A stretch of 37,707 bases of DNA. Source: Oligoflexia bacterium. GTDB lineage: Bacteria > Bdellovibrionota > UBA1018. Positions 7,712 through 12,992 of this stretch are shown here, in pieces. Position numbers and translations under genes: made by a program. The notes below the pieces were generated by a model that worked only from the letters and a program-made list of their open reading frames with translations, made no database searches and had not been told where the DNA came from. The DNA is taken from the NCBI GenBank assembly GCA_903881565.1, contig CAIRTR010000314.1:1-37707 (forward strand). Reading direction: 5' to 3'. Numbering within the stretch: the stretch's first letter is position 1; every line of letters starts with the position of its first letter.

Positions 7712-8580
7712 AGCTAGCCCTCCGGCCCTGGAAAGTTTCGCTCGCTAATCAGCTTTTTTCATCCGGTGCAATGGGGCTACTCCTTGTGCTCTTAAGTTTT
7801 CTTTTATGGCTCGGCCAAGGCCTTAAACCCGTCGTGGATCGCATGGATCGTGAGCAGGTGATTACGGCCTACATCCATCCCGGGATTGAAGTGCAGGATG
7901 AAGGGCCCGTGATTGATTCAATCCGCGTTGCGGTGGGCGCTTCTGCGCAGCGTGATTCAGAAACGCAGGCTCCGGTGTCTGTAAGACGGGTCAATACTGA
8001 GGAATTTTTTTCGTTGATTCGCAACTCGTATCCCGACCTCGCGCGCGAAGTTGAAGACCTCGGAGCCGAGGCCAAAAAACTGGTCCCCAGGTACGTTTCG
8101 ATATCCGGAATGCTCGATGCCAAAGCCATTGATCGCGTTCGGGCGATTCCAGGGATCGAGAGTGCGGAAACTTCGCGCGAGCGTTTCAAACATATCGCAG
8201 GCGCGTTTTCGACTCTGCGATGGGTATCGATTTTCTTAAGCTTAGGAATTTCTGTGGCGATGCTTTCAGGACTGATCCATTTGGCCCGCACCAACTCCAT
8301 GCTGCATCGGGATTCGCTGGCGCTCCTTCGCTTGTGGGGCGCATCCAATCTCACGATGCGTGCGCCGAGTTTGATTTCGGGTTTAATGGTTGGGCTGCTT
8401 GGGGGCACGTTAGCTGCGAGCGTTTGGGTGGGCGCAAGTTTATTGGCTTTGTCCAAAATTCGCCTGCTTTCACCGCTTTTTGAAGCTCTTCCGAATCCAC
8501 CTGCTTATTTTGCTTTGCTCATACTCGGCTGCGGGATCTTGCTCGGCATGCTCTCCGGATTGGCCGAGAGGAAGACCTAA
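7699..8580 (+). CDS. ftsX: Cell division membrane protein FtsX
   Basis: A 293-residue permease-like protein read from a TTG start. It has the FtsX topology: a first membrane helix (GAMGLLLVLLSFLLWLG), a periplasmic extracellular loop (about residues 45-175) and three further helices (VSIFLSLGISVAMLSGLIHLA, LISGLMVGLLGGTLAASVWVG, YFALLILGCGILLGMLSGL). The loop contains the family-type segment REQVITAYIHPGIEVQD. In FtsEX the periplasmic loop binds EnvC (or PcsB in Gram-positives). The gene overlaps ftsE by 13 nt, and envC starts 1 nt after its stop. Confidence 0.88.
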   Translation: MYLLKLALRPWKVSLANQLFSSGAMGLLLVLLSFLLWLGQGLKPVVDRMDREQVITAYIHPGIEVQDEGPVIDSIRVAVGASAQRDSETQAPVSVRRVNTEEFFSLIRNSYPDLAREVEDLGAEAKKLVPRYVSISGMLDAKAIDRVRAIPGIESAETSRERFKHIAGAFSTLRWVSIFLSLGISVAMLSGLIHLARTNSMLHRDSLALLRLWGASNLTMRAPSLISGLMVGLLGGTLAASVWVGASLLALSKIRLLSPLFEALPNPPAYFALLILGCGILLGMLSGLAERKT

Positions 8581-8581
8581 G

Positions 8582-9781
8582 ATGGGAAGGCAGTGGCTTC
8601 GCTTAGTGATTGCTTCGGGTTTTGGTATTAGCCTGAGCGCTTGGGCCGCTCCTGCGGCTCCTGCTCCCGGGAAACTTGTTAATCGCCTGCACTCAATCAG
8701 TCAAGAAGTGCTCTCCGCAGAGCAGCGCCTGATCGAAGGGATCAAAACCCAACAACAGGCAAAATCTCAGATTAAAGAAATTCAGCATTTGATTCATTTA
8801 CGCCAAAGCGAGCGTACGCTTCGAAAAGAGCGTATGAGTGAGTTAGAGGGGACCCTCTCTGAACTCGAAAGACGGCGCAATCACGTCAGCGGTAAAATCG
8901 CGGCCCAACAACGGACGATTCGACATTTGCTTCAGGCGCTCGAAACCTCTTTGCGCGAAGACGGCGGATCCGCCTACGAGCCTTCCCGCGAGAAGATCGA
9001 AGCGCCAAGACGTAGGCTTTTATCGAATCTCACGGACCGTGGGATCAAGGAGATCGAAGCGCTGAAAGTCGACCTCAACGACTCTGACCAGCTCGAAGAA
9101 CGCATCCAAGAAGAAAGGCATCAACTCGCCTCACTCTCCCAAGATCTTCAGGAGCAAGAGACGTTGCTTGAGTTTAATCGCAAACTCCAATCCGATCTTC
9201 TCCAACGCAAAAGCCAGCAGCGACTTGCCGATTTGCTTCAGTACCAAAAGCTGAAAAAATCGCAGGGCCAGGTGGAGACCTTGATTCAGCAGTTTAATGC
9301 TCGTCGGGAGCTTGAGCGAGTACAAGACACCGAACGAACCGCCGCTTCATCGGCTACGACAGTGACGGCCTCGATGGCTCAAAGTGCGTTTGGCGTCTTA
9401 AAGGGGCGACTCGCCATGCCCGTCTTGGGTGGAAAAATTGTTGCGGGCTTCGGCCGCGCGTTTGATCCCAAATCCAGGCTCACGATTTTCCGTAAAGGCG
9501 TTGAGATCTCAAACCCAAAAGTGATCGCGGTCCGAGCTGTCGCTTCTGGCCTTGTGGCCTATTCGGGTGAATTGCCCGACCTTGGCAAAGTGACAGTGAT
9601 TGATCATGGCGATCACTTCTATACGCTGCTTGCAAAACTTGGCGAAGTTTCGACCAAGACCGGACAGAGCATTGAAAAAGGCGAGTCAGTAGGGATGACG
9701 GATAACCAGGGGACTCCGGTTTATTTTGAAATCCGCACACGCAATGTGGCAGTGAATCCCGTGCAGTGGTTGGGGAATTAG
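8582..9781 (+). CDS. envC: Murein hydrolase activator EnvC (degenerate LytM domain)
   Basis: A 399-residue periplasmic protein. The ATG at 8582 follows the ftsX stop by one base and has GAGAGGAAG upstream. From this start the protein has a clean signal peptide (LRLVIASGFGISLSAWAAPA). A long Glu/Gln/Arg-rich coiled coil occupies about residues 30-270. A C-terminal LytM/M23 domain (about 275-399) ends in YFEIRTRNVAVNPVQWLG, very like EnvC. The zinc ligands of active LytM enzymes are missing: the HxxxD site reads KGVEIS and the HxH site reads VYFE. This matches known EnvC, which activates amidases rather than cutting peptidoglycan itself. The stop codon overlaps the stop of the convergent downstream gene. 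Confidence 0.92.
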   Translation: MGRQWLRLVIASGFGISLSAWAAPAAPAPGKLVNRLHSISQEVLSAEQRLIEGIKTQQQAKSQIKEIQHLIHLRQSERTLRKERMSELEGTLSELERRRNHVSGKIAAQQRTIRHLLQALETSLREDGGSAYEPSREKIEAPRRRLLSNLTDRGIKEIEALKVDLNDSDQLEERIQEERHQLASLSQDLQEQETLLEFNRKLQSDLLQRKSQQRLADLLQYQKLKKSQGQVETLIQQFNARRELERVQDTERTAASSATTVTASMAQSAFGVLKGRLAMPVLGGKIVAGFGRAFDPKSRLTIFRKGVEISNPKVIAVRAVASGLVAYSGELPDLGKVTVIDHGDHFYTLLAKLGEVSTKTGQSIEKGESVGMTDNQGTPVYFEIRTRNVAVNPVQWLGN

Positions 9782-10343
9782 AATTGGCAATTTTCCTTGG
9801 AACTTGTCGTCGATAGAAACTTTGACCGACAAGCTTCATATTGAGCCTGGGAAATCGGCTTCTCAGATTCGCGAATTAACATCTCGCCATATTGTGAATG
9901 AGATTTCTTCGTGATGCTCATTCCCGACGCGTCGAGTGTCGCTGCACCCTCTACCGTCGAACCGTTGAGCACTCCACTGACAAACCGAATTTGATAACTC
10001 CAACCTGTCCAAAGCCAATCAGGCCCATCAAAGACCAGTTTTCCAACAAAAGAGTGAAGTTCATCGGTCGCAATCAGGACGTTTGTCGAATCCACCCGTG
10101 TCATCGTGGTTACATCATGAAAAGGGGGTTGGCAGGAGACGTGGTTCGCTTGATCAGGGAAAATGTTCCTCCACGAGGAGTCGCACCATCAGCAGAATAA
10201 AAACTGACTGGCCCGTAAAAAAATGACGTTGAATCCGCAAGGGGCTGATCGCTTGCGATCTTACGCTTTCCGGAAACTTCGGCATTAACAAGTCCGTGGA
10301 CGGCGAAAAAGAAGGCAAGACTTAGAATGACTGTTTTTTTCAC
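9778..10343 (-). pseudogene. Secreted protein of unknown function, split by a one-base frameshift
   Basis: Two adjacent minus-strand frames look like one gene. The first (10343-10110, 77 codons, GTG start) has a signal peptide (TVILSLAFFFAVHGLVNAEV) but stops early. The second (10104-9778, 108 codons) has no signal peptide or plausible own start. Adding one base to the CCCCC-TTTT run near 10117-10125 joins them through PFHDVTTMTRVDST into a coherent secreted protein of about 188 residues. No family is recognised; a segment WTGWSYQIRFVSG and a late CRSKFL are visible. The break could be a real mutation, a phase-variable tract or a sequencing error in a homopolymer. The stop at 9778 shares two bases with the envC stop (convergent). 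Confidence 0.6.
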
Positions 10344-10365
10344 GCGAATTTATCCCCCGTGAAAC

Positions 10366-10371
10366 AGTATA
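10366..10371 (-). promoter_or_regulatory. Possible -10 element for the frameshifted secreted gene
   Basis: TATACT on the minus strand lies 23 nt before the GTG at 10343, followed by a GGGGGA ribosome-binding sequence. No convincing -35 is seen 16-18 nt upstream. Confidence 0.25.
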
Positions 10372-10445
10372 CCTCGCTTCCAACCCGGGAACTACGGGCC
10401 GACCAAAAAAACATTGTCTTTTCGAGCAGACAACGCCCTTCGACG

Positions 10446-10590
10446 TTGACCACCCGCACCCTCGCCGGCGAGGTTTCGCAGGCCTACACCCTAAGCGGGC
10501 GAATTTCCGAAATCGCGAAGTTAATGGCCTAAGCCCCCCACCCTTACCCCGATAACTTCACTATTTCGGAAATTCAAAGCCCAAGGCCCG
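10446..10590 (+). repeat. 145-bp dispersed repeat with long hairpin, copy A
   Basis: This is the first of two direct copies (the other is 11212-11356, offset 766 bp, no gaps, 124 of 145 positions identical by hand alignment). It holds a 14-bp perfect palindrome (CCTCGCCGGCGAGG, 10460-10473). It also holds a 23-bp inverted repeat with arms 10501-10523 and 10553-10575 (21 of 23 pairs) around a 29-nt C-rich loop. It fills much of the 305-bp gene-poor stretch 10344-10648; nothing else is seen there except the weak -10 at 10366. The structure is that of a non-coding REP/MITE-like element. Confidence 0.85.
10501..10575. repeat. Inverted repeat (23-bp arms) within copy A
   Basis: Arms begin GAATTTCCGAAAT and end ATTTCGGAAATTC. 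Two mismatches fall in the middle of the right arm relative to copy B. A transcript would fold into a long stem ending in a C-rich loop with the GGCCTAAGCC segment. Confidence 0.85.
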
Positions 10591-10648
10591 TCACGCTCTT
10601 GCCGGAAATGTGGACACTTCACTCACCTTGCGATATCGCTTGGTCCCA

Positions 10649-11155
10649 ATGTCGCACATGCAACAACCCGGCTGCAAAATCCGCGAAATCGATCCCCAAT
10701 CCCAAGCAGAGATATCCCTTGTTGCCCAGCGAATGCGCCAAACATTGATTGAGGTTCTGGGTGAGGAAAAAGGCACCGCGATGTACACCATGGACTGGCT
10801 CACAGAGAGAGTTCGATGGCATTTGGATCCCAAAAGACGCGTTTTTCTATCAGAGAATGAGGCGAGGCAAATTACCGGACACGCTATCGCCCGAATTGAG
10901 AGTGGGGATGATGGAATTCTACTCGGATATTTTTCGACGGTATTTGTGGCGCTTGACTCGAGAAGGCAGGGGATCGCAGGCACTCTCCTAAGACATGTCG
11001 AGAGTTGGTTCCTGGAAAATGGTATACCGAAGATTGTCTACAATACGGCGAAGAACCATTCGGCAATTATCGCCCTGTTTTCGGCGCATGGTTATCGGAT
11101 CACCTATTCGGAGTTTGAGATGATTCAGCTCACGAAGGTGCTTTCGGGATCTTAG
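10649..11155 (+). CDS. GNAT-family N-acetyltransferase
   Basis: About 168 residues from the ATG at 10649; an ATG at 10658 or a GTG at 10610 are possible alternatives in the same frame. The protein has the GNAT fold signature: a beta strand FSTVFVALDSRR followed by the acetyl-CoA pyrophosphate loop RRQGIAGTLLRHVESWF. A later segment KIVYNTAKNHSAIIALFSAHGYR has the typical N-x4-AI-x-LF-x2-GY of the family. It transfers an acyl group from acyl-CoA to an amine. Substrate is not predictable. The gene sits alone between two direct copies of a hairpin-bearing repeat, suggesting a cassette that entered or could leave by recombination. Confidence 0.82.
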   Translation: MSHMQQPGCKIREIDPQSQAEISLVAQRMRQTLIEVLGEEKGTAMYTMDWLTERVRWHLDPKRRVFLSENEARQITGHAIARIESGDDGILLGYFSTVFVALDSRRQGIAGTLLRHVESWFLENGIPKIVYNTAKNHSAIIALFSAHGYRITYSEFEMIQLTKVLSGS

Positions 11156-11211
11156 CCTATTCTGAGTAGGGTATCTAACGGGAGATGAACAGCCTAAACC
11201 ACTGTCTCCGT

Positions 11212-11356
11212 TTGACAAGCCGCACCCTCGCCGGCGAGGTGGCACCCTCTCAGCCCCTAAGCGGGCGAATTTCCGAAATCGCGAAGTTAAAGGCCTAAGC
11301 CCCCCACCCTAGCCCAGGTAATTTCGCGATTTCGGAAATTCAAAGCCCAAGGCACG
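11212..11356 (+). repeat. 145-bp dispersed repeat with long hairpin, copy B
   Basis: Second direct copy of the element at 10446-10590. It has the same 14-bp palindrome (11226-11239) and an even better hairpin: arms 11267-11289 and 11319-11341 match at 22 of 23 positions, the odd one being a G opposite T. Differences between copies cluster in the segment between palindrome and stem (10 of 21 mismatches), while the left stem arm is identical in both. That pattern suggests the stem is the conserved part. Confidence 0.85.
11267..11341. repeat. Inverted repeat (23-bp arms) within copy B
   Basis: Left arm 11267-11289 pairs with right arm 11319-11341 across a 29-nt loop. It is near-perfect and is the longest hairpin seen in the window. 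No T-run follows it, so it is not a classical intrinsic terminator. Confidence 0.85.
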
Positions 11357-11379
11357 CAAGCAACCCAACTGCCATTCCC

Positions 11380-11409
11380 TTGACGAACAGCTTGAATACT
11401 CACGAGAAT
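11380..11409 (+). promoter_or_regulatory. Possible promoter of the ctpA-xseA gene run
   Basis: TTGACG at 11380-11385 and GAGAAT at 11404-11409 with an 18-nt spacer, about 75 nt before the ctpA ATG. The -35 is five of six and the -10 four of six to consensus. It lies just after repeat B. Confidence 0.35.
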
Positions 11410-11483
11410 TTCGCACCCCGAACTCCAAAACTCACTGATAATCCATTGCGGTGGCTATTTATTTAGTTTAGCCTAATCGTTAT

Positions 11484-12992
11484 ATGCTTAACCTCACAAA
11501 AAGAATCTCTGTGTTCGCATTAGTCATCACTGTTTCCTTCTTAGGAATCAATCTCGGCCAGGGCCTCACCCACCACGTGGCAAACCTCACTGCGGCACAT
11601 GCGGCGCCGCCGGCTTCACCCACGGCAAAAGATGATAAAGCGGGACCCACACGCTACGAAAACCTCGAACTCTTCCAAAAAGTTCTCCATTTCGTCGAAG
11701 CCAATTACGTCGACGAAATCAAAAACAAAGACCTCGTCTACGGCGCCATCAAAGGCATGCTCGAGACGCTGGATCCTCACTCCAATTTTCTGACCCCTGA
11801 GATCTTCAAAGAAATGAAAGTCGACACCTCCGGCAAGTTCGGCGGCCTCGGCATCGAAATCGGGATCAAAGACAATATCCTCACCATCATGGCGCCGATT
11901 GAAGATACGCCCGCTTGGCGCGCAGGCCTTAAGCCCAATGACCGCATCGTGAAGATCAATGCCGAGAGCACCAAGGGCATGACCCTGATGGAAGCCGTCG
12001 GCAAGATGCGCGGGAAAAAGGGCACCGACGTCACCCTCTCCATTTATCGTGATGGCTTTGAGAAGATTCGCGACGTGACCGTCACCCGCGATGTGATCAA
12101 GATTCAATCCGTTAAGAGCGAAGAGCTTGAGCCCGAATACGGCTATATTCGTTTGACGAGCTTTAACGAAAGCGCGGCAACCGACATCAAGAAGGCCATC
12201 GAAAAGCTCGAATCCAAAAAGAAACTCAAAGGACTCGTATTCGACTTACGCACCAATCCAGGCGGACTGCTCGACCAAGCCGTCGAAGTCTCATCCCTCT
12301 TCATCGATGAGGGCGTGATCGTTTCGACGATCGGCCGCAATCGCGATCAAAAAGATGTCAAATACGCTCGCAAAGGAAATGCTCGTAAAGACTTCCCTGT
12401 TGCGATTCTCGTGAATTCAAACTCCGCCTCAGCCGCTGAGATCGTGGCCGGCGCACTCCAAGATCATCACCGTGCCATCATCATGGGACAACCGACCTTT
12501 GGAAAGGGATCCGTGCAGACCGTGATTGAATTAGGCCCAGATCTCGGACTGAAGCTAACCATCGCCCGCTACTACACCCCGAGTGGTCGTAGCATTCAGG
12601 AAAAGGGCGTACATCCAGACATCATCCTTGATGACTACGATCCAAAACTCCTGACCGAAGCCAAGCGCAAGCTTGATCCTTTTCGCGAAAAAGACCTCAA
12701 AGGCCACATGGTCAACACAGATGAAGACGATGGCGCCAAAGAATACAAAAAAGAAGAACTCGATTCTTTGATGAAAGAAGGCAAGGATTCCGAGTCGAAG
12801 TCGAGTAAGAAGAAGGGCGACTCCAAATCCAAGGAGCGCTCTAGCAGTAAAGAAGAAGACGACATGACGCCTACAAAGATCAACCCCAAAGAAGATTTTC
12901 AGGTTCGCGAGGCGCTGAACTACATCAAATCTTACGATGTGTTCAAAAAGCTCATGGTAGAAGAAAAGCCTGCGACCAAAGCATCCAAGTAA
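11484..12992 (+). CDS. ctpA: C-terminal processing peptidase (S41 family, PDZ domain)
   Basis: A 502-residue periplasmic serine protease with an N-terminal signal or anchor helix (about residues 8-27). The segment DPHSNFLTPEIFKEM is typical of the family. A PDZ domain spans about 105-190 (GLGIEIGIKDNILTIMAPIEDTPA). The S41 core contains SNSASAAEIVAGALQDHHRA, placing the nucleophile at S316, and PTFGKGSVQ with the general base at K341. The 25-residue spacing equals that of known Ser-Lys CTPs. The last 110 residues hold a Lys/Glu/Ser-rich, probably disordered stretch. CTPs trim C-termini of envelope proteins or control peptidoglycan hydrolases. xseA starts directly after the stop. Confidence 0.93.
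   Translation: MLNLTKRISVFALVITVSFLGINLGQGLTHHVANLTAAHAAPPASPTAKDDKAGPTRYENLELFQKVLHFVEANYVDEIKNKDLVYGAIKGMLETLDPHSNFLTPEIFKEMKVDTSGKFGGLGIEIGIKDNILTIMAPIEDTPAWRAGLKPNDRIVKINAESTKGMTLMEAVGKMRGKKGTDVTLSIYRDGFEKIRDVTVTRDVIKIQSVKSEELEPEYGYIRLTSFNESAATDIKKAIEKLESKKKLKGLVFDLRTNPGGLLDQAVEVSSLFIDEGVIVSTIGRNRDQKDVKYARKGNARKDFPVAILVNSNSASAAEIVAGALQDHHRAIIMGQPTFGKGSVQTVIELGPDLGLKLTIARYYTPSGRSIQEKGVHPDIILDDYDPKLLTEAKRKLDPFREKDLKGHMVNTDEDDGAKEYKKEELDSLMKEGKDSESKSSKKKGDSKSKERSSSKEEDDMTPTKINPKEDFQVREALNYIKSYDVFKKLMVEEKPATKASK

Follow-up and report, generated by a model that had tools for sequence, protein, structure and literature searches.

A divergent REPIN/RAYT-type repeat system in an Oligoflexia bacterium, with one direct pair of repeats around a GNAT acetyltransferase gene

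Two inverted repetitive extragenic palindromic sequences (REPs) that form one hairpin constitute the REPIN architecture, and in the published case REPINs reach hundreds of copies (Bertels and Rainey 2011, PMC3116915). The genes for their REP-associated tyrosine transposases (RAYTs), which are Y1 HUH enzymes, can lie between their own repeats in so-called REPtrons, with one RAYT per repeat subfamily (Nunvar 2010, PMC2817692; PMC3733652). Another group, the TIRtrons and their TIRYT genes, places RAYT-like genes between long, partly self-complementary repeats without the GTAG tag (PMC3733652). For the E. coli enzyme TnpAREP a structure has been solved (PDB 4er8), and Y115F is its catalytic mutant (PMC8266576). 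Here we describe a 37,707-nucleotide stretch (the window: contig CAIRTR010000314.1, or C314, of the Oligoflexia bacterium assembly GCA_903881565.1) in which two direct 145-bp repeats, each with a hairpin, bracket a gene for a GNAT acetyltransferase. The hairpins belong to a new, divergent REPIN/RAYT system: the family was previously unnamed, its RAYT is divergent and a GTAG tag is not evident. We document its dispersal, a paired stem with compensatory changes, three RAYT-linked subfamilies, the co-occurrence of hairpins and RAYTs, and the bracket around the GNAT gene; the family seems to spread by means of a single-strand transposase of its own.

The hairpins resemble the REPINs of PMC3116915 in that inverted REPs are combined in one hairpin with compensatory changes, the elements are intergenic and dispersed, and subfamilies occur near specific RAYTs. 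However, their sequence is unrelated, they number tens of copies instead of hundreds, no GTAG tag is evident, and each arm is an AT-rich palindrome, AAYTTC..GAARTT, the loop of which is mostly 9 nt. As in REPtrons, a Y1 HUH transposase gene lies between its own repeats and each subfamily has one RAYT, but here whole REPINs, mostly direct, bracket the gene, the RAYT falls under the NCBIfam cut-off without a Pfam match, and the window pair encloses GNAT. The TIRtrons share with our system long, partly self-complementary and at times moderately abundant repeats, some of which combine two different palindromic units, whereas theirs are described as terminal inverted repeats, the comparison being one of descriptions (PMC3733652). 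Finally, among solved structures the profile of our RAYT family matches TnpAREP (4er8) alone, with the HUH motif and Y115 aligned, although the match spans only about 90 residues (E 3e-5) and GTAG is required by the E. coli enzyme (PMC8266576).

The two repeat copies (10446-10590 and 11212-11356) form the sole direct repeat family of at least 30 nt in the window. They lie 766 bp apart and align directly and without gaps at 124 of 145 positions (85.5%), exactly as an earlier sequence-only reading had placed and scored them. That reading had also given each copy a 14-bp palindrome and a stem, with a left arm common to both, and all of this holds: the left 23-nt arm shows no difference between the copies, the arms of copy 2 (11267-11289 / 11319-11341) are 23 nt long and 96% complementary, and the best arms of copy 1 (10501-10533 / 10543-10575) extend over 33 nt at 82%. 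Both copies, on either strand, fold with z-scores of -3.9 to -5.3 against dinucleotide shuffles, and none of 200 shuffles folded as well. An exact-pattern match to a Thermotoga metagenome-assembled genome, found in a contig database search, was single and was taken as chance.

The copies were then compared with the whole genome (G000; 4.56 Mb in 323 contigs) and with the other members of a set of 58 genomes. A covariance model, R1, was built from 12 hairpin copies, of which this genome supplied 11. It found the hairpin of about 90 nt, made of two inverted arms, at 33 distinct places of the genome (E<=0.001); the training copies match by construction, and about two thirds of the 33 places lie outside the training set. 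The cores in the window are REPIN 1 at 10495-10583 (inverted REP-like arms 10501-10523 / 10553-10575 with a spacer; 85.2 bits) and REPIN 2 at 11261-11349 (78.8 bits), both being training sequences. Nearly all hairpin places (35 of 37) fall outside any open reading frame (ORF) of at least 150 amino acids, and the usual element edges are GGCCT...AAGG. The sequence-only reading would have been refuted by a genome without further copies and a stem not conserved in relatives; instead, there are many further genomic copies, and relatives preserve the pairing of the stem through compensatory changes.

The pairing of the stem is borne out by its variation. Among 25 diverse elements, 14 of the 21 pairs of the long stem changed on both sides, and 69 covarying cells were counted in the long hairpin versus 25.8 +- 3.9 in shuffles, which leave the relatedness of the elements in place; slid versions gave no more than 16. 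The arms, too, are short palindromes when taken singly, for example AACTTC-N9-GAAGTT here, AAGTTC..GAACTT (G005), AACGTCC..GGACGTT (G010) and CTTCCC..GGGAAG (type 3). Apart from a few outliers, the hairpins of this genome fall into three main subfamilies, each of which includes the REPIN pair, or the found member of it, around one of three RAYT genes. The window pair clusters with the subfamily of the RAYT on contig C275, and its two members are mutual best matches.

The three RAYT genes lie on contigs C275, C239 and C55. On C275, two direct hairpin copies surround an ORF with the motif MPNHLHLLLP, the product of which matches NCBIfam NF047646 (REP_Tyr_transpos) at E 1.8e-9, under the equivalog cut-off; all seven RAYT-like proteins compared (that of C275 and six relatives) match it, with E-values from about 1e-9 to 7e-12. 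The HUH motif (MPNHxH) and the catalytic tyrosine (Y100) are invariant in nine RAYT homologues. Six RAYT loci are bracketed by near-identical REPINs at a spacing of 931-999 bp: the whole elements are direct at C275, C239, C55, C391 of G022 and C130 of G022, and inverted at C450 of G014, each bracketing REPIN having both arm orientations. At C275 the sequence shared by the pair extends slightly past the element. Direct repeats missed there by R1 also flank RAYTs in G010 and G037, and more weakly in G036. The G037 gene (G037:C2:380090-380869) is a distant RAYT from another family of the order, flanked by direct repeats that contain TGGCAAGAGCACC and are unrelated in sequence. A search for the RAYT among plasmids gave no match. 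Separately, this genome contains a second HUH/Y1 group, of about 200 amino acids with NVGNHxHLL and PF01797, in at least 9 copies above the cut-off (on C9, C11, C307, C132 and others); on C307, one of them and a REPIN are about 2.5 kb apart.

Hairpins at E<=0.001 occur in 5 of the 58 genomes (G000, G005, G010, G014 and G022), and all five belong to the six genomes in which a RAYT was found at E<1e-50. The hypergeometric estimate for this co-occurrence, about 1e-6, is too small a value, since an identical contig is common to G014 and G022 and relatives share history. The contigs in question, G022:C130 and G014:C41, are both 5454 long and carry RAYT and REPINs at equal positions in genomes of different genera; they are probably one contig binned twice. 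No genome lacking a close RAYT has hairpins and, taken with the stem and the subfamilies, this marks a REPIN/REPtron-type system. One genome that holds three REPIN subfamilies and a separate transposase for each, next to relatives with neither, makes a compact natural system for studying how a RAYT can recognise its repeat in the absence of a GTAG tag.

We thus hold it very probable that the hairpins are REPIN-type elements on which a RAYT-type HUH/Y1 transposase acts in trans, an explanation into which the origin of the GNAT bracket enters by inference only. The REPIN would be non-autonomous and depend on a RAYT encoded elsewhere in the genome. By extension from the published work on TnpAREP, this enzyme would bind the arm hairpins on single-stranded DNA, would cut near the hairpin feet with its tyrosine and would so disperse the REPIN among intergenic sites. 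At the window locus, the second copy was probably produced either by a local duplication of the first or by insertion of a REPIN-GNAT intermediate at a resident REPIN, and this event would be set inside the segment that split envC from ctp (see below). The weaker part of the explanation is the proposal that REPIN activity carried GNAT to this locus or enclosed it there.

Several points weigh against it. No consistent GTAG or other published REP tag was seen at the arms when the elements were read by eye. The NF047646 scores are about 40 bits against an equivalog cut-off of 80, and no Pfam family, PF01797 included, matches the C275 RAYT. Six of the 15 RAYT loci tested have no bracketing repeat. 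The genomes G014 and G022 are not independent, given the contig common to both. The shuffle control of covariation retains the relatedness among elements, and therefore the argument rests on the slid controls and on the different stems in different genomes. Lastly, no transposition or excision event was seen.

Each 145-bp copy consists of two unrelated repeats joined, a palindrome and the hairpin of about 90 nt, and a whole-genome search found the two halves separately elsewhere. The palindrome, CCTCGCCGGCGAGG, lies at 10460-10473 in copy 1 and 11226-11239 in copy 2 and is a second, independent dispersed repeat, outside the hairpin family. Exact matches to it number 11 in the genome (the reversed control has none), and with one mismatch allowed there are 21, versus 1 for the control. 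Besides the window, its exact sites are on C194, C215 (two), C223, C224 (two), C280 (two) and C284, and the only other REPIN with a close match within 200 bp is C239:6259, with one mismatch in 12. No exact copy was found in the 23 family relatives searched; outside the family, G044 has one and G047 two. Its strong over-representation here marks it as a second short repeat or a putative protein-binding site. The palindrome is often lengthened to CACC...GGTG, some of its copies are inside ORFs, and a match in G028 resembles coding DNA.

The gene between the copies, on the plus strand at 10610-11155, encodes a GNAT acetyltransferase, as first read from the sequence (PF00583, E 4e-8, above the family cut-off). 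The listed start is GTG, but two ATG codons in the same frame, at 10649 and 10658, agree better with the homologues. Clear homologues among the 58 genomes are restricted to G042 (59%) and G004 (47%), on contigs other than the ctp contigs and without flanking repeats; G037 has a weak match, and a plasmid search gave none. The gene and both REPINs are part of a lineage-specific segment of 1702 bp (9782-11483), between an M23 (envC-like) gene at 8480-9781 and an S41 protease (ctp) gene at 11484-12992. In 28 relatives the envC-ctp gap measures only -79 to 240 bp.

The window pair has the layout of the RAYT brackets, being direct, formed of mutual best matches and spaced at 766 bp, but encloses GNAT. 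The strongest competing account opposes only the last step of our explanation: the hairpins are REPINs, and segmental duplication, slippage or gene conversion made a local second copy of a REPIN with its palindrome, so that the two came to flank a gene already present or arriving separately, the pair having no part in moving GNAT. About 37 REPINs in 4.56 Mb would give an estimated 0.3 pairs within 1 kb by chance, and one such locus is known. Chance does not explain the mutual best match and the homology beyond the REPIN, which plain local duplication does: the shared stretch runs about 35 bp past the usual edge and takes in the unrelated palindrome, as in a plain copy of local DNA. On the other side, the C275 RAYT pair likewise shares sequence slightly past the element, the layout is that of the RAYT brackets, with direct copies that are mutual best matches, and the locus lies in a lineage-specific segment with a patchily distributed gene. 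On balance we give an incidental bracket somewhat more than an even chance, and for the bracket itself plain local duplication is slightly favoured.

The bracket nevertheless hints, short of proof, that such pairs can carry other genes. In a cargo REPtron, GNAT would replace the transposase between the direct REPINs and would be moved in trans by a C275-type RAYT, for instance as a REPIN-gene circle inserting at a resident REPIN. We consider this unlikely. The REPIN-GNAT-REPIN arrangement is at one locus, with no empty site among the genomes compared. A literature search covering few subscription journals found no REPtrons with passenger genes. If the cargo reading were true, REPINs could transport genes as well as themselves, and a direct REPIN bracket around a non-transposase gene makes the question of whether RAYTs move more than the REPIN directly testable. 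The sequence-only reading had proposed that homologous recombination between the direct copies could delete the 766-bp unit; given 14.5% divergence between them, recombination of this kind would be expected to be inefficient.

Two further readings concern the hairpins themselves. A role at the RNA level, in which they would form a structured small RNA, terminate transcription or stabilise the mRNA where the GNAT transcript ends, could account for the strong folding, the compensatory pairs and the intergenic placement, and such side effects have been credited to REPs elsewhere (PMC3733652). The covariation, however, is equally well explained by a single-stranded DNA transposition substrate, the hairpins are near-symmetric and their distribution tracks the RAYT. 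No Rfam family matches, the sole sub-threshold match being a human-type microRNA family far under the cut-off, and terminator-like sites number 0 versus 2.7 in shuffles. We therefore regard an RNA role as very improbable, although a transcript side effect is compatible with REPINs. Of the alternatives first suggested, a family of REPs or miniature inverted-repeat transposable elements, or else a structured RNA, the former stands, as REPIN-type elements tied to a divergent RAYT, and the latter is without support. GNAT is a common integron cassette gene, and direct hairpin-forming repeats flank one here, but attC sites around a gene cassette are hardly credible: the arms pair over their full length, no R/L box layout was seen on reading the repeats (no search for an integron integrase was made), and the copies are scattered singly, with no cassette arrays, and follow the RAYT instead. 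With 0 terminator-like sites, the terminator reading is likewise set aside.

Besides REPIN 1, GNAT and REPIN 2, the 1702-bp segment contains two small, adjacent minus-strand ORFs, at 10110-10343 and 9778-10104. They match no family and nothing at the ctp loci of relatives. From their sequence, they look like one small secreted protein, frameshifted near a CCCCCTTTT run.
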